Origin: Salinisphaeraceae bacterium
Lineage (GTDB): Bacteria > Pseudomonadota > Gammaproteobacteria > Nevskiales > Salinisphaeraceae
DNA length: 64,000 nt
Reading direction: 5' to 3'
NCBI GenBank assembly: GCA_002683405.1
Contig: NYTH01000006.1
Location: 1-64,000, forward strand
The stretch's first letter is position 1. Each line of letters opens with the position of its first letter. The notes below the pieces were generated by a model. The model saw only the letters and a program-made list of their open reading frames with translations, was not told where the DNA came from and did no database searches. This document shows positions 22,357 through 38,154 of the stretch, one piece after another. The position numbers were made by a program, and so were the translations under genes.

Positions 22357-23433
22357 CTATGGGGCGTCGGGGGCCTGTTTCCGGTGGTCCTGCTGAGCTG
22401 CCGCGCCCCTGCGATACTGCTCTGGCGTAACGTCAAACCAGCGCTTGAATGCTCGCCGGAAGTTTGCGCTATCGTGATAGTTGAGTAGCGCGGCGATTGC
22501 CTCGTTCGAAAGCCGGGTCTTGCTCAAGTAGCCGGCTGCTTGAGCGGACAGGATTTGCTCGCGGATCTTTCGAAAGCAGCTGCCTTCTTTTTTGAGTTTC
22601 CGCGCCAACGTACGCTTGCTCATGAAAAGAGTGGCCGCCGCTTCTTCTTCACTCAGTGTCCCGGGTGGATGCGACAGCATTATTCGTTTCAGGCGGTTCT
22701 GATAGCTGGGCTTGAGTGTCTGCAGCTGGACAAGCATGGCTTCGCATTGTTCCAGAGCCAGGCGATAGTTCTCATGATTCGCGGACGCGTTGGGTTCACG
22801 ACATAGCGCCATCGGCAGCTTGAGCTTGAGGCTGCTACAGTCGAAATGAACCTGTCCGGGCAGGTATTCCGGATAAACCCTGTGGTACTCGGGTGCAGGA
22901 TGGGCAAAGAGTGTCTCGGCCTCAGACAACGGGCGTCCCACTACGAATTCCCCGATTTCGAACAGTGCCTTCACGGTTGTTTCGGCCAGGCACCGGCTGA
23001 GCTCTGCGTCCAGCGATAGCTCGAAACCAAGCAAACATTCCAGCCAGTTGTCGGCTTGCCGTAATTCAAGCCGGACAAAGCTGGCGCGGGTCGGCAGAAA
23101 TTTGTGAATGGCTTGTAGCGCGGTCAGCAGGTCCGGGCTGCTATTGGCCAGAAACCCCATTGCCCCGTGCGTCCCTGGCGTCAAGCGCTGTCCCAGTCGC
23201 AAACCGAAATCCGGCGTTCGGGACAGATCAAGCGCATTGTGCAGAATGCGTACCTGCTGGGTGTGGGTGAGCAGACTGTCCTCTTTCAGGAAATACGCGG
23301 CGTCAATTCCCGTACCCTGAAGCAGTCTGGACAGGCTTCTCGCGTTCAGGCCAAGTTCCCGGGCGATCAACCGCGAATAGTTCGCCGGAATCCCGGCCCC
23401 TGTGGCAAGCAACGCCTTTCTACGCCGAGTCAT
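22357..23433 (-). CDS. AraC-family transcriptional regulator of the CYP153 operon
   Basis: This 358-residue regulator has an N-terminal ligand-sensing domain of the arabinose-binding-like type found in OruR/MmsR-like proteins (LLQGTGIDAAYFLKEDSLLT, FGLRLGQRLTPGTHGAMGFLA). A C-terminal double HTH follows, with LFMSKRTLARKLKKEGSCF and SNEAIAALLNYHDSANFRRAFKRW. The ATG at 23433 gives the normal family length. It is divergent from the ferredoxin and CYP153A genes, and direct repeats in the gap are plausible binding sites. AraC regulators of this type commonly neighbour CYP153 genes. The inducer, perhaps an alkane or its oxidation product, is inference. Confidence 0.88.
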   Translation of the reverse strand: MTRRRKALLATGAGIPANYSRLIARELGLNARSLSRLLQGTGIDAAYFLKEDSLLTHTQQVRILHNALDLSRTPDFGLRLGQRLTPGTHGAMGFLANSSPDLLTALQAIHKFLPTRASFVRLELRQADNWLECLLGFELSLDAELSRCLAETTVKALFEIGEFVVGRPLSEAETLFAHPAPEYHRVYPEYLPGQVHFDCSSLKLKLPMALCREPNASANHENYRLALEQCEAMLVQLQTLKPSYQNRLKRIMLSHPPGTLSEEEAAATLFMSKRTLARKLKKEGSCFRKIREQILSAQAAGYLSKTRLSNEAIAALLNYHDSANFRRAFKRWFDVTPEQYRRGAAAQQDHRKQAPDAP

Positions 23434-23566: not shown

Positions 23567-23878
23567 GTGGATAAAGTTACCTTTATCGAGCGCAACGATA
23601 CCGAGCATATAGCGCAGTTCCGGACCGGGATGGCGTTGATGCAAACAGCGGTGGAATACAGGGTACCCGCTATTGACGCCGATTGTGGCGGCTCCTGTGC
23701 CTGCGGTACCTGCCACGTCATAGTGAGCGAAGAGCGATTCGGTGAAGCGGGGAAAAACGAACGCCAGATGCTGGAAATGAAGCCGGAGCGGGGGGAAACT
23801 TCCCGCCTGGCCCGCCAGGTCGAAACCACCGAAGCCATGGACGACTTGGTCGTTCGTTTGCCCGAATATCAAATGTAA
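23567..23878 (+). CDS. [2Fe-2S] ferredoxin of the CYP153A operon, lacking the fourth cluster cysteine
   Basis: This 103-residue protein resembles adrenodoxin/putidaredoxin-type ferredoxins that feed electrons to P450s. The first three ligands are present in CGGSCACGTC (Cys40, Cys46, Cys49; C-x5-C-x2-C). The fourth ligand, normally Cys in SRLxCQI, is Arg83 here (SRLARQV, codon CGC at 23813-23815). The paralogue at 36368-36685 keeps it. One T-to-C change from TGC would explain the loss. The GTG start was chosen for the AGGA upstream and the standard N-terminus DKVTFIE. It lies 17 bp before CYP153A. Without the cysteine a normal cluster would be compromised unless Cys44 substitutes. Confidence 0.88.
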   Translation: MDKVTFIERNDTEHIAQFRTGMALMQTAVEYRVPAIDADCGGSCACGTCHVIVSEERFGEAGKNERQMLEMKPERGETSRLARQVETTEAMDDLVVRLPEYQM

Positions 23879-23895: not shown

Positions 23896-25308
23896 ATGTC
23901 CACGCAATCTGAAGTTATAAGCGGTTTTCAGACCCGCGCCGCCAATGTAGCGGCCAATCTGGTGCCCATGCACTGGCAAATCCGCGCGCTGCGCTTGCTG
24001 CTGAAAGGCAAGAAATTGACTTTGGGCGCGCGTTCTGTGCCGGATGTGGTTGAAGCGCCGGTGCCCGATGTGAACACATTGGCCTTGGACGAAATCGACC
24101 TCAGCAACCCGTTCCTCTACCGACAGGATAAATGGCGCAGCTATTACAAACGCCTGCGCGACGAGGCGCCGGTGCATTACCAGCAGAACAGCCTGTTTGG
24201 TCCCTTCTGGTCGGTAACCCGGTTCGACGACATTATTTACGTCGACAAGAATCACGAGCTTTTCTCCTCCGAACCCGTGATTATTCTGGGTGACACCCCT
24301 GAGGGTTTGCCCATGGAAATGTTCATTGCGATGGATCCGCCCAAGCATGACGAGCAGCGGCGCGCGGTGCAGAGCGTGGTGTCGCCGCAGAATCTCAAGG
24401 AAATGGAGGACCTGATCCGCTCCCGCACCGAAGAGGTGCTCGATGATCTGCCCCTGAACGAACCGTTCAACTGGGTGCCGAGAGTATCAATTGAACTCAC
24501 CGGCCGAATGCTGGCCACGTTGCTCGATTTTCCCTACGAAAACCGACACAAGTTGGTGTACTGGTCGGATCGGATAACTGGCACGGCCGAATCCACGGGC
24601 GGCGAATACAATAATCCGGACGAGCTATTCGAGGCCGTGGCCGACATGGCCCGTGATTTCACCCAACTGTGGCGCGACAAGCAGGCCCGTCACGCCGCGG
24701 GGGAGCCGCGTAGTTTCGACGTAATCAGCCTCTTGCAAGGTAGCGAAGACACCCAGGACATGATTCGCCGACCGATGGAGTTTCTGGGCAATCTCACCCT
24801 GCTGATCGTCGGCGGCAATGACACCACGCGCAACTCCATGAGTGGTGGCGTGCTCGCTTTGAACGAATTCCCCGACGAATTTGCAAAGCTCAAGGCCAAC
24901 CCGGAGCTGATTCCGAATATGGTCTCGGAAATCATCCGCTGGCAAACACCGCTGGCGCACATGCGCCGCGTCGCGACGCAGGACGTGGAAATGCGCGGCA
25001 AGACGATCAGGAAGGGCGACCGCGTAGTGATGTGGTACGCCTCCGGCAACCGCGACGAGCGCAAGATCGATAGGCCGGACGAATTCATAATTGACCGGAA
25101 AGGCGCCCGTAATCATTTGTCCTTCGGTTTCGGCATCCATCGTTGCATGGGCAACCGGCTGGCTGAAATGCAACTGCGCATTCTCTGGGAGGAGTTGCTC
25201 AAGCGTTTCGAGAACATCGAAGTTGTGGGCGAGCCGGAACGGGTACAGTCCAACTTCGTGCGCGGCTATTCCGAACTGATGGTCAAGCTCACCCCCAAGC
25301 AGGACTAG
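23896..25308 (+). CDS. Cytochrome P450 alkane hydroxylase, CYP153A subfamily
   Basis: This 470-residue soluble P450 closely resembles CYP153A enzymes, which hydroxylate terminal carbons of medium- to long-chain alkanes, fatty acids and related aliphatics. Visible landmarks are VNTLALDEIDLSNPFLYRQ, FIAMDPPKHDEQRR and the I-helix GGNDTTRNSMSGG. The ExxR is in SEIIRWQTPLAHMRR and the haem loop is FGFGIHRCMGNRLAE, with Cys417 as ligand. Length is standard. Electrons should come from a ferredoxin and its reductase; the neighbouring ferredoxin is defective-looking and no reductase is in the window. It is likely induced through the adjacent AraC protein. Confidence 0.95.
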   Translation: MSTQSEVISGFQTRAANVAANLVPMHWQIRALRLLLKGKKLTLGARSVPDVVEAPVPDVNTLALDEIDLSNPFLYRQDKWRSYYKRLRDEAPVHYQQNSLFGPFWSVTRFDDIIYVDKNHELFSSEPVIILGDTPEGLPMEMFIAMDPPKHDEQRRAVQSVVSPQNLKEMEDLIRSRTEEVLDDLPLNEPFNWVPRVSIELTGRMLATLLDFPYENRHKLVYWSDRITGTAESTGGEYNNPDELFEAVADMARDFTQLWRDKQARHAAGEPRSFDVISLLQGSEDTQDMIRRPMEFLGNLTLLIVGGNDTTRNSMSGGVLALNEFPDEFAKLKANPELIPNMVSEIIRWQTPLAHMRRVATQDVEMRGKTIRKGDRVVMWYASGNRDERKIDRPDEFIIDRKGARNHLSFGFGIHRCMGNRLAEMQLRILWEELLKRFENIEVVGEPERVQSNFVRGYSELMVKLTPKQD

Positions 25309-25382: not shown

Positions 25383-25525
25383 GCTAAATTGTGTCCGCTG
25401 GCTAAGGCCTTGCGCCATTGGGGGTGGGCTGCGTGCCTGACGTGTTGCCCTCCGAATCAGGATCCGCGCGTGCCGACGCGTACATGATCGGGAGTGCGCG
25501 AGGAAGGGCACCAAGGGTGAGCACG

Positions 25526-27157
25526 ATGACCGAACACCGATCCGTTGATGCACTTGTCATAGGGGCGGGCTTTGCCGGCCTGTACCTTATGTACCGGCTG
25601 CGCGACCTGCTGGGTCTGGAGGTAATTGGCGTTGACGCCGCCAGCGACGTCGGCGGTACCTGGTACTGGAACCGCTATCCCGGCGCGCGTTCGGACACAG
25701 AGAGCCAGGTGTACTGCTACTCGTTCAGCAAGGCGTTGCTGCGCGAATGGCGCTGGAGCGATCGCTACCCGCGACAGCCCGAGATCCTGAGATACCTGAA
25801 CTTTGTTGCCGATCAGTTCGATCTGAAACGCAGCTTCATTTTCGGCGAGCGCGTAATCGCCGCTCACTACGACGACGATGCCGGCCGCTGGCAGGTTACA
25901 ACCGACCAGGGTCGTCGCATCGACTGCCGCTATCTGCTCGCGGGAGTGGGTCTGCTTTCGGCCGCCAACCTGCCGGCGATTCCGGGGCGCGAGTCGTTTG
26001 GCGGAGAGCAGTACCACACGGGCAACTGGCCGCGGCAGGGCGTAGGCTTTGCCGGCAAGCGGGTGGGGGTCATCGGCACCGGGTCCACCGGGGTGCAGCT
26101 CATTAGTGAAATCGCCGGCCAGGTCGAACACCTGACAGTCTTCCAGCGTTCGCCCCAGTACAGCGTACCGGCGCGTCACGGGCCCCTGGCGGAGGAAACC
26201 CAGGCGCAAATCCAGCAAAACTACGACCAGATATGGGCGCGGGTACGCAGCTCGGGGGTGGCTTTCGATTTTCCGGAGGCAACGGTATCGGCGCTATCAG
26301 TTGATGAGGCTGCGCGCCAGGCTGAATTCGAGCGTGGCTGGCAGGAGGGTGGCGGGTTTCGCTTCATGTTCGGGTGTTTCAACGATATCGCCACGGACCC
26401 GCGTGCCAACGAAATGGCCGCCGAGTTCATCCGCGGCAAGATTCGCGAAATCGTCAAGGACCCGCGGATCGCGCAAAAGCTGCTGCCCGATGACCTCTAT
26501 GCCAAACGGCCGCTGTGCGACCCCGGCTATTACCAGGTCTATAACCGCGATAATGTGGAACTCGTCGATGTACGGGCCGAACCCATCGAGACCATCACCC
26601 ACGGCGGCGTGCGGACTCGTGCGGGCGAATACCCCCTGGATATGCTCGTATTCGCCACCGGTTTCGATGCGGTCACGGGCAATTACACCCGCATGGATAT
26701 TCGCGGACGCGGGGGGCAACTGCTGGCCGATGTGTGGGCCGACGGGCCGACCAGCTATGCGGGCATGGCCAATCATGGCTTTCCTAACCTGTTCATGGTG
26801 GAGGGCCCGAACGGCCCGTTTACCAACCTGCCGCCGACCATAGAAACGCAGGTGGAATGGATCAGCGGGCTTATCGCTCATGGCCTGCGCGAAGACAGGC
26901 CCATTCTGGAAGCCCGAGCCGAAGCCGAGTCCCGATGGCTGTCGACATGCCGGGAGATTGCGGATCAAACCCTGTTCCCTCAGGCGGACTCCTGGATTTT
27001 CGGCAGCAACGTGCCGGGCAAGGCCCGCGCGGTGATGTTCTACCTGGGCGGTCTGGGGCCGTACCGCCAACTACTGGGCGAACAGCGCCGCCAGGGGTAC
27101 CCCGCAATCCGGCAATCCGGCTTGTCGGCGGCGGCGCGGGCCGCGGATTCGGAATGA
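25526..27157 (+). CDS. Class I Baeyer-Villiger monooxygenase (cyclohexanone-monooxygenase-like)
   Basis: This 543-residue FAD/NADPH enzyme inserts oxygen beside a ketone to give an ester or lactone. The first Rossmann motif is VIGAGFAGLYLMYRL and the second is VIGTGSTGVQLI. Between them lies the BVMO fingerprint SFGGEQYHTGNWP (FxGxxxHxxxWP). GGTWYWNRYPGARSD is also typical, and length matches cyclohexanone-type BVMOs. The start is either this ATG or the GTG 9 bp upstream; both have AAGGG-type sites. Next to an alcohol dehydrogenase and a P450 it could complete an alcohol, ketone, lactone sequence for a cyclic or internal-ketone substrate (inference). Confidence 0.93.
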   Translation: MTEHRSVDALVIGAGFAGLYLMYRLRDLLGLEVIGVDAASDVGGTWYWNRYPGARSDTESQVYCYSFSKALLREWRWSDRYPRQPEILRYLNFVADQFDLKRSFIFGERVIAAHYDDDAGRWQVTTDQGRRIDCRYLLAGVGLLSAANLPAIPGRESFGGEQYHTGNWPRQGVGFAGKRVGVIGTGSTGVQLISEIAGQVEHLTVFQRSPQYSVPARHGPLAEETQAQIQQNYDQIWARVRSSGVAFDFPEATVSALSVDEAARQAEFERGWQEGGGFRFMFGCFNDIATDPRANEMAAEFIRGKIREIVKDPRIAQKLLPDDLYAKRPLCDPGYYQVYNRDNVELVDVRAEPIETITHGGVRTRAGEYPLDMLVFATGFDAVTGNYTRMDIRGRGGQLLADVWADGPTSYAGMANHGFPNLFMVEGPNGPFTNLPPTIETQVEWISGLIAHGLREDRPILEARAEAESRWLSTCREIADQTLFPQADSWIFGSNVPGKARAVMFYLGGLGPYRQLLGEQRRQGYPAIRQSGLSAAARAADSE

Positions 27158-34926: not shown

Positions 34927-35024
34927 GACAGCGGCTTGCCCGCAGTGCAAGATTTCCCTTCAACAAAATCGAACTTAGGCCGGCTTTGCCGACGCGCGGC
35001 GTGGCCGAGGACACGGAGGAGCAT

Positions 35025-36290
35025 ATGCAAGCAAACGCGGAAATCCAGTCAGTAGCGGCGGAGCGAGCGTATTCGGTGCCATTAAGCGAAATCGATGTCA
35101 GCGACCCTAAGCTGCATCAGGCCGACGCCATCTGGCCCTATTTTTCCCGGCTGCGGCAGGAGGCGCCTGTGCATTACACGCCGGACAGCGACTTCGGCGC
35201 ATTCTGGTCCGTGACCCGGTACAAGGACATCATGAATATCGAGATGCAGCCGAAGACGTTCTCCTCGGAGGCGGCCCGTGGCGGCATCACGATAATGGAT
35301 GGCAATGAAGTCGCTACCCTGCCCATGTTCATTGCAATGGACCCCCCCAAGCACGATGCACAACGGAAAGTGGTCAGTCCCATCGTGGCGCCTCACAACC
35401 TCGCCAAGCTCGAGGATTTAATCCGTCAACGTACCGCTGAGAGACTCGACGAACTGCCGTTGAACGAGGAATTCGACTGGGTGCAGGAAGTGTCGATAAA
35501 CCTGACGACCAAGATGCTTGCCACGCTTTTCGATTTCCCCTACGAGGACCGGCACCTACTCACCCATTGGTCGGATATCGCGACGACACTACCGGGTGCC
35601 GGGCTGATCGATAGCGAAGAGGAGCGAATGGTCGAGGTGCAAGCCTGCGCCGAGTACATGACGCGGCTTTGGAACGAGCGTGTTAATTCAGAGCCCGGAC
35701 CCGATGTATTGTCCATGCTGGCGCACTCGGACAAGACTCGCAACATGTCGCCCGAAGAGTTTCTGGGCAATATGTTCCTGTTGATTGTCGGTGGAAACGA
35801 TACCACCCGCAACTCGATGAGCGGGGGGCTGTTGGCTCTTAATCAGCACCCCGGGGAGTACGAAAAGCTCGCTGCCAATCCCGAGCTCGTCCAGAGCTCG
35901 CTGGTGCCGGAGATAATACGCTGGCAAACGCCGCTGGCTCACATGCGGCGTACCGCCAATACCGACATTGAGTTCGCTGGGGAGAAAATCCGCAAGGGCG
36001 ACAAGGTCATCATGTGGTACGTGTCCGGTAACCGTGACGAACGGAGCATCGACAGGCCCAACGAGTTCATTGTCGATCGCCAGCGGCCGCGCCAACACCT
36101 GTCCTTCGGATTCGGCATCCATCGCTGTGTTGGCAACCGTCTTGCAGAATTGCAGCTGCGTATACTCTGGGAGGAACTGTTGCAGCGCTGGCCCGATCCC
36201 ATGCAGATCGAGGTGACGGGGCAGCCGCAGCGGATTCTGTCCAATTTCATCAAGGGCTACGAAAGCCTGCCGGTGCGTATAAACGCCTGA
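35025..36290 (+). CDS. Cytochrome P450, CYP153 family (second copy)
   Basis: This 421-residue P450 is related to, but clearly diverged from, the CYP153A at 23896. Shared segments are FIAMDPPKHDAQRK, GGNDTTRNSMSGG, EIIRWQTPLAHMRR and the haem loop FGFGIHRCVGNRLAE (Cys368). It lacks the N-terminal 45-residue extension of the first copy and differs through the substrate-recognition region after DFPYED (ATTLPGAGLIDS). The ATG is preceded by GGAGG. The next gene is an intact ferredoxin. A substrate differing from that of the CYP153A is likely, but unknown. Confidence 0.93.
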   Translation: MQANAEIQSVAAERAYSVPLSEIDVSDPKLHQADAIWPYFSRLRQEAPVHYTPDSDFGAFWSVTRYKDIMNIEMQPKTFSSEAARGGITIMDGNEVATLPMFIAMDPPKHDAQRKVVSPIVAPHNLAKLEDLIRQRTAERLDELPLNEEFDWVQEVSINLTTKMLATLFDFPYEDRHLLTHWSDIATTLPGAGLIDSEEERMVEVQACAEYMTRLWNERVNSEPGPDVLSMLAHSDKTRNMSPEEFLGNMFLLIVGGNDTTRNSMSGGLLALNQHPGEYEKLAANPELVQSSLVPEIIRWQTPLAHMRRTANTDIEFAGEKIRKGDKVIMWYVSGNRDERSIDRPNEFIVDRQRPRQHLSFGFGIHRCVGNRLAELQLRILWEELLQRWPDPMQIEVTGQPQRILSNFIKGYESLPVRINA

Positions 36291-36367: not shown

Positions 36368-36685
36368 ATGAAGATAACGTTTATCGAGTACAACGGTACC
36401 GCCATGGAAGTGGAAGCCGCCCAAGACGGCACGCTTAGGGACGTGGCACTGGATAATCTGGTGCCTGGCATCGATGGCGATTGCGGCGGTGATTGCGCGT
36501 GCGCGACCTGCCACGTATTTATTGACGATGAATGGCAGGCGAAACTCCCCCCGCTCAGCGACGACGAAGATACGATGCTTGCACTCTGTGATGATCGTAC
36601 CGAGGCTTCACGGCTGGGTTGCCAGATCAAGCTTGGTCCCGAACTGGATGGCCTCGTCGTGCGCACTCCGGAGGGGCAGCATTAG
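36368..36685 (+). CDS. [2Fe-2S] ferredoxin paired with the second CYP153-like P450
   Basis: This 105-residue adrenodoxin/putidaredoxin-type ferredoxin has all four ligands: CGGDCACATC (Cys39, Cys45, Cys48) and Cys85 in SRLGCQIKLGPELDG. It should carry electrons from a ferredoxin reductase to the upstream P450. The reductase is missing from the window, so it must be encoded elsewhere. ACGGAGATGATTC before the ATG supplies the ribosome binding site. Because the ferredoxin of the CYP153A operon looks defective, this protein might serve both P450s (inference). Confidence 0.93.
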   Translation: MKITFIEYNGTAMEVEAAQDGTLRDVALDNLVPGIDGDCGGDCACATCHVFIDDEWQAKLPPLSDDEDTMLALCDDRTEASRLGCQIKLGPELDGLVVRTPEGQH

Positions 36686-36798: not shown

Positions 36799-38154
36799 GG
36801 CTCTTCCGGTAATCGTGTAGGTGGAATCGAGGATCTGCAGGGCTGGTGGACCGTGTGGCAACGCGGTTGGGCGGCTGTAGCGTGGTGGTGAGGCTTGTCA
36901 TTATGCGCACATGGCTAGCCCCAGAAAGAAGCGTCTTTTAGACGCATACCGGTTTCCGGGCTTTCGGCTCTTCGAGCAGATCAACGGCATTTTTGGTGAT
37001 CCACACGCGCGTGTGGTCACCTTGGTCCGGCGCTCAAAAAAAAACGATCTGCGGCGTGTGTGGCTGCGCGCATTCGGGTTGGTACGACCGGCGCACCCGG
37101 CGGGTTCGCGATATGCCATGTGGGCCGTATCGGATTTTCCTGGAGTTCCGGGTCCGGTGTGTGCGTTGCAAGCGCTGCAAGAAGGTGAAGCGCGAGCGCT
37201 TAGATTTTCTGTCGGACAGCCCGTTTTACACGAAACGTTTTGCCTACTACGTGGGTCGGCGCTGTCGCAACGAGACGGTATCGACGGTCGCCAAGGAGCT
37301 GCACCTGGACTGGGACAGCGTCAAGGCGTTGGATAACTGGACAAGCAGTACATGAAGGCCCAGCTGGCCAAGGCGGGCACCTCGGGTCCCAAGCGGATTG
37401 GCATCGACGAAATCTCGATCAAGAAGCGGCACAGCTATCGCATCGTGTTCAGCGCTCTGGATCCGGGTCGGCCGATCTGGTTCGGCGGCGAAGATCGCTC
37501 GGAGGCGAGCATGGCGCAGTTCTATGCCGCGACCTGGGCGAGAAAAAGAGCCGAAAGATTCGCCTGGCCCTGATGGACATGTGGAAGCCGTTTCGCAAAC
37601 CCACACAGGCCCATTCGCCACAGGCGGCGATTCTTTTCGACAAGTTTCACGTCATGCGCCATCTGGGCGAGGCGCTCGACAAGGTTCGCAAAAGCGAATA
37701 TGCGCACCTGTCCGGCAAGGATCGTCGATTCATCAAGGGACGGAAGTTCACGCTGTTGTCCAACCGGGAAAATCTGACGCTGGTAGGCCGCCAATCCCTG
37801 AAGACTCTGCTTGCGGCCAACAAGCGCTTGAACGTCGCTTACTTGCTCAAGGAATCCTTCGGCTTCGGCCAGCTCTGGAACTACCGAAGCCAAGCCTGGG
37901 CCAGGCGCTTCTTCGGGAACTGGCGAGAGTCCCTGAAGTGGAAGCGCCTCAAGCCCTTCGAGAAGTTCGCAGAGATGATTGATCGGCATTGGGATGGAAT
38001 CGCCGTCTACTGCGAGCCCGAAAACAAAGTCTCGCTTGGCTTCGTAGAAGGACTGAACAACAAGATTCGTGTTATCCAGCGCGGCTCGTACGGGCTACGA
38101 GAGGAAGAATACCCGCGGCTCAAAATCCTCACTTGCATGCTGCCTCAGCTATGA
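36799..38154 (+). mobile_element. Degenerate ISL3-family insertion sequence
   Basis: GGCTCTTCCGGTAATCGTGT at 36799-36818 has the look of an ISL3 terminal inverted repeat (GGCTCTTCC start) and lies 112 bp before the transposase start. The matching right end (a GGAAGAGCC-type sequence) was not found after the transposase. The element therefore seems to have lost its right end, perhaps by deletion; the right boundary given is only the end of the transposase remnant. It marks the junction between the P450 block and the CoA-ester block. Confidence 0.75.
36911..38154 (+). pseudogene. ISL3-family transposase with at least three frameshifts
   Basis: Coding sense moves between frames. The N-terminus KKRLLDAYRFPGFRLFEQ is followed, after a 9-A run near 37036-37046, by the Cys-rich zinc-finger segment ICGVCGCAHSGWYDRRTR. 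A second shift near 37335-37350 precedes IGIDEISIKKRHSYRIV, with the catalytic DE. A third near 37535 precedes LALMDMWKPFRKPT, ILFDKFHVMRHLGEALD and FVEGLNNKIRVIQRGSYG. Together they span a nearly full ISL3 transposase of about 400 residues, which cannot be made as one protein. The element should be immobile unless a related transposase acts in trans. Confidence 0.85.

Follow-up and report, generated by a model that had tools for sequence, protein, structure and literature searches.

A CYP153A-operon ferredoxin with arginine at the fourth cluster-ligand position has probably lost, or is losing, its function

The closest described relatives of the ferredoxin considered here, Fdx1, are the CYP153A-operon ferredoxins of Marinobacter, Alcanivorax, Acinetobacter EB104, Solimonas, and Sinimarinibacterium. 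These proteins are approximately 50 to 64% identical to Fdx1, share with it the CGGxCACGTCHVIV and LPEYQM/LPEFQM motifs, and are encoded, in most cases, in the same AraC / Fdx > CYP153A order. The fold and the C-x5-C-x2-C loop of Fdx1 are also found in Rhodobacter capsulatus FdVI (1e9m), putidaredoxin, terpredoxin, and adrenodoxin, and an extra cysteine at position 44 is common to Fdx1, FdVI, and terpredoxin. All four of these proteins have a cysteine as the fourth ligand, whereas Fdx1 has an arginine. In adrenodoxin, the replacement of any ligand cysteine by serine yields an apo-protein, and E. coli Fdx that lacks its cluster is unfolded (PMC3827102).

Two kinds of natural protein come near to Fdx1 in their departure from four-cysteine ligation. 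First, P450-associated [3Fe-4S]/[4Fe-4S] ferredoxins with the motif CXX?XXC(X)nCP are natural P450 donors that work with a non-cysteine residue in place of one usual cysteine (PMC6237146); unlike Fdx1, they have another fold and cluster, and their substitution is widespread and compatible with a [3Fe-4S] cluster. Second, the auxiliary [2Fe-2S] cluster of biotin synthase has three cysteines and one arginine, Arg260, as its natural ligands (PMC11138216, PMC11099021), the same set of residues that is available in Fdx1. However, biotin synthase is not a ferredoxin but a radical SAM enzyme, and its cluster is sacrificial.

Fdx1 is encoded in a window of 64,000 nucleotides, the whole stretch of DNA analysed, from a Salinisphaeraceae bacterium (Table 1). 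The gene lies directly upstream of a CYP153A gene (P450_1), from which it is separated by a 17-nt gap, and is divergent from an AraC gene, and so has the position expected of an operon ferredoxin. A sequence-only reading had named the downstream gene a CYP153A, and this is borne out by matches to the PDB entries 5fyf, 3rwl (CYP153A7), and, as the best of the three, 8b2p ("Cytochrome P450 alkane hydroxylase"). The Fdx1 frame is intact over 103 codons, without a stop, frameshift, or truncation, and homologues align with it end to end; a wrong frame or a frameshift as the source of the missing cysteine was rejected on the basis of this alignment, which runs to the last residue. The Pfam Fer2 match (E 1e-6, above the gathering cut-off) ends at residue 66, while that of the paralogue Fdx2 extends to residue 88. 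The lack of a reductase gene in the operon was not counted as an additional sign of decay because several homologous modules are also without a reductase within 4 kb. Directly 3' of P450_1, at 25418-27157, is a gene for a flavin monooxygenase (FMO)-like, Baeyer-Villiger-type monooxygenase; no such gene was seen there in those homologous modules that were examined.

Table 1. Positions of the ferredoxin module, of altered sites in Fdx1, and of the second CYP153A gene pair in the window
Feature	Position	Strand	Remarks
AraC-family regulator, divergent from Fdx1	22357..23433	-	Conserved AraC / Fdx > CYP153A module
Fdx1, adrenodoxin/putidaredoxin-type [2Fe-2S] ferredoxin ORF	23567..23878	+	GTG start, 103 aa, 312 bases
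Fdx1 Gly35 to Ala	23669..23671	+	Column invariant in 31 other operon ferredoxins
Fdx1 Cys40-x3-Cys44-x-Cys46-x2-Cys49 cluster-binding loop	23684..23713	+	From translation and alignment
Fdx1 Trp57 to Arg, then Phe58, then three-residue deletion	23735..23740	+	Deletion private to Fdx1
Fdx1 putative partner-recognition (acidic) helix, residues 63-74, KNERQMLEMKPE	23753..23788	+	Net charge 0
Fdx1 T72K, inside the acidic helix	23780-23782	+	Invariant column
Fdx1 codon CGC, Arg83, fourth-ligand position	23813..23815	+	Cys column in 170/171 homologues
Fdx1 Gly93 to Asp	23843..23845	+	Invariant column
CYP153A (P450_1), intact	23896..25308	+	PDB matches; normal purifying selection
P450_2, second CYP153A-type P450, upstream of Fdx2	34986..36290	+	
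Fdx2, intact four-cysteine ferredoxin, SRLGCQI	36368..36685	+	Candidate in-trans donor

The cluster loop of Fdx1 reads C40-GGSCA-C46-GT-C49, so the Cys-x5-Cys-x2-Cys arrangement is present, as the sequence-only reading had noted, and these three columns are cysteine in all 171 aligned homologues. The fourth, C-terminal ligand cysteine is missing. The translation agrees with the earlier observation that SRLARQV, with the CGC codon of Arg83, stands where Fdx2 has SRLGCQI. That reading would have fallen if arginine were usual in close homologues; instead, the column holds cysteine in 170 of 171 distinct aligned sequences (110 of them cellular, the remainder from viral contigs), and Fdx1 alone has arginine. 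A later search added 15 ferredoxin loci, partly overlapping with the aligned genes, and each has the fourth cysteine. The viral contigs hold only more distant ferredoxins, again all with cysteine at this column, and a plasmid search returned no match of 60% identity or more. The genomes searched for relatives belong to genera other than that of the source genome. The scans of the collection used the CGGxC/TCHV region as their seed; they are therefore uninformative on the loss of Cys40 to Cys49 but place no constraint on column 83. Arg83 is, therefore, a real observation and a statistically unusual one.

The sequence comparison indicates that Arg83 is one of several changes in Fdx1 and not an isolated one. 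Fdx1 breaks five columns that are invariant across the 31 operon ferredoxins from its clade used for comparison (G35A, W57R, T72K, C83R, and G93D), compared with a maximum of two in any of those 31 taxa. Its neighbors do not show this pattern: P450_1 breaks two invariant columns, where other taxa break up to nine, and the adjoining AraC breaks none. Moreover, the private deletion and a neutral recognition helix set Fdx1 apart from the other CYP153A-operon ferredoxins compared. These changes bear on the idea that Arg83 reflects faulty base calling or assembly in an otherwise working, fast-evolving ferredoxin. CGC is a single transition away from TGC, and the genome (3.72 Mb, 99% complete) is a draft assembly of 58 contigs; nevertheless, one error is insufficient to account for four more invariant columns, an in-frame deletion, and an altered helix charge, and we regard such an error as very improbable.

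The helix at residues 63 to 74 was matched by eye to the acidic helix with which adrenodoxin binds its reductase, by contacts from Asp72, Asp76, and Asp79 (PMC7593955). Fdx1 lacks the acidic character of this helix, which has a net charge of 0 vs −3 to −5 in all 31 homologues; the total charge of the protein is −6, compared with −7 to −15. Structure predictions also differ. The AlphaFold model of Fdx1 has a mean pLDDT of 84.6, compared with 92.5 for an intact homologue modelled with the same set of sequences, and the values for residues 41 to 50, in the cluster loop, are 69 and 82, respectively. A short helix predicted at residues 55 to 58 of the intact homologue is missing from the Fdx1 model, at the W57R site. 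The beta-grasp ferredoxin fold is retained, with 1e9m as the best Foldseek match (TM 0.90, E 8.6e-11; phmmer E 1.4e-20), as are the TCHVIV and LPEYQM motifs, three ligands, and Cys44.

Because the three genes of the module share a history, P450 and AraC can serve as clocks for the ferredoxin. On a fixed P450+AraC tree of 32 taxa, the terminal branch of Fdx1 measures 0.66 substitutions per site, the longest of the 32 in the ferredoxin tree, while the P450 (0.22) and AraC (0.27) branches of the same lineage are not extreme. The Fdx1 branch is 2.4 times the length expected from P450 (2ΔlnL 15.3) and 3.2 times that expected from AraC (2ΔlnL 24.8). One other taxon (L079) has a similar ratio of ferredoxin to P450 branch length, but its branch is much shorter. 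When a single synonymous time was imposed on the three linked genes, a codon model gave an omega of 0.176 (0.136 to 0.258) on the Fdx1 branch vs 0.105 on other ferredoxin branches (2ΔlnL 6.5), and values of 0.063 for P450 and 0.12 for AraC on the same branch. A two-ratio test of Fdx1 only, in which time was not shared, was not significant (omega 0.175 vs 0.105, 2ΔlnL 1.6); only the model with shared time reaches significance.

An omega of 1 over the whole Fdx1 branch is strongly rejected (2ΔlnL 71). Hence, Fdx1 was under constraint for most of the branch, and its loss would be recent or partial; judging from the omega values, relaxation, were it complete, would occupy only about 8% (3 to 17%) of the branch. 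Neither of the usual marks of a pseudogene, a disrupted frame or neutrality over the whole branch, is seen in Fdx1, and its omega is raised over the background. An alternative is that Fdx1 has been repurposed without a cluster, for example as a regulator, a decoy, or an ORF retained for translational coupling to the P450. The intact ORF and the 17-nt gap are consistent with such a role, as is the substitution of function-defining sites while constraint persists elsewhere in the protein. However, no other member was found that carries these changes independently, and nothing points to any particular new role, which leaves repurposing with little probability.

The sequence-only reading had also raised the possibility that Cys44 substitutes as the fourth ligand, in which case Fdx1 would work normally. 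Cys44 is present inside the cluster loop, but it was not newly gained to compensate, an idea that we rejected because the residue is ancestral. It occurs in 167 of 171 homologues, all of which except Fdx1 also have the canonical fourth cysteine, and in FdVI (1e9m) its equivalent is a nonligand that coexists with the four canonical ligands. Moreover, a terpredoxin in which the equivalent residue is mutated (C43S, 9q36) is still deposited as a [2Fe-2S] ferredoxin. The open-access literature on terpredoxin and on ligand swapping in ferredoxins yielded nothing of use. A swap to Cys44 is, on this evidence, extremely unlikely, and this part of the earlier reading is not supported.

A further possibility is that Fdx1 is functional with an atypical [2Fe-2S] cluster held by Cys40, Cys46, Cys49, and either Arg83 or water/solvent, with an altered potential and lability. 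Biotin synthase Arg260 provides a natural precedent, the P450-linked ferredoxins with a noncysteine motif residue are working proteins, and the intact frame and the rejection of whole-branch neutrality also fit. These precedents, however, have other folds or are [3Fe-4S] proteins, and no homologue of Fdx1 has arginine or any other noncysteine residue at this column. The apo-protein produced by Cys-to-Ser ligand changes in adrenodoxin argues in the same direction, and the lost recognition charge, W57R, and the deletion would be left unexplained. We therefore consider an atypical working cluster unlikely, and the narrower proposal of a working ferredoxin with three cysteines and one arginine as cluster ligands still less probable. 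We know of no natural arginine ligand of a [2Fe-2S] cluster beyond that of biotin synthase. If Arg83 did ligate the cluster, the coordination would be new to a family that has been studied very closely, and Fdx1 would be, to our knowledge, the first adrenodoxin-type carrier to combine an arginine ligand with a changed redox potential or lability.

In our assessment, it is instead probable that Fdx1, the cognate ferredoxin of the P450_1 module, stopped functioning recently or is now decaying, that it is without a working cluster, and that its CYP153A is fed in trans by Fdx2 or Fdx3. We infer the loss of the cluster, the cross-supply, and the order of these events from the comparisons above and from the gene content of the genome. 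With Arg83, a stable [2Fe-2S] cluster would most likely not form, and Fdx1 would be made as an unstable apo-protein, while the neutralized helix would weaken its binding to the reductase and the P450. P450_1 would stay functional, receiving electrons from the reductase on another contig via Fdx3 and/or Fdx2. Two of the three alternatives offered by the sequence-only reading, reliance on another ferredoxin and a newly defective gene, are mutually compatible, and both are favored by the extra lesions, the rate of evolution, and the presence of Fdx2 and Fdx3.

The genome encodes three P450-type ferredoxins, Fdx1, Fdx2 (C6:36371), and Fdx3 (C33:93492), of which the latter two are intact, and four CYP153A-type P450s. 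Only one ferredoxin reductase with a Reductase_C domain (PF14759) was found, and its gene adjoins that of Fdx3 on contig C33; a CYP153A-type P450 gene on that contig (P450_3) is convergent with the Fdx3-reductase pair (L205:3644-7074). P450_1 has a clade relative in the genome, a CYP153A with 67% identity to it (C32:12645-14009; L217:6634-8019), that has no ferredoxin beside it in the surrounding 18 kb, although in the order as a whole at least 37 of the 39 remaining full-length P450s in the P450_1 clade have a ferredoxin as their immediate neighbor. Neither CYP153A of this clade in the genome thus has a normal adjacent ferredoxin, which is most economically read as supply in trans. CYP153A from M. 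aquaeolei works with CamA/CamB, a foreign pair (PMC3815936), and so cross-supply is chemically possible.

In a redundant set, the decay of one paralogue is nothing out of the ordinary in evolution. Nevertheless, if the loss of Fdx1 and supply in trans are correct, this would be a natural P450 operon in which the P450 has been retained after its own electron carrier failed, and the source genome would share electron supply for CYP153A between operons. The case matters for the assignment of redox partners from gene order: annotation would misassign the role of donor to the adjacent gene, and those who rebuild the operon would pick the wrong ferredoxin.

Finally, the wider distribution of CYP153A suggests that the module was gained by the source lineage, possibly horizontally, or lost elsewhere in its family, because a search for CYP153A at E 1e-110 gave no match in any of 16 same-family genomes (G001-G016), whereas many genomes in other families of the order have one. 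Within the window, the second CYP153A cluster adjoins a mobile element: an ISL3-type transposase gene lies at 37240-38154, approximately 550 bp 3' of the Fdx2 gene.
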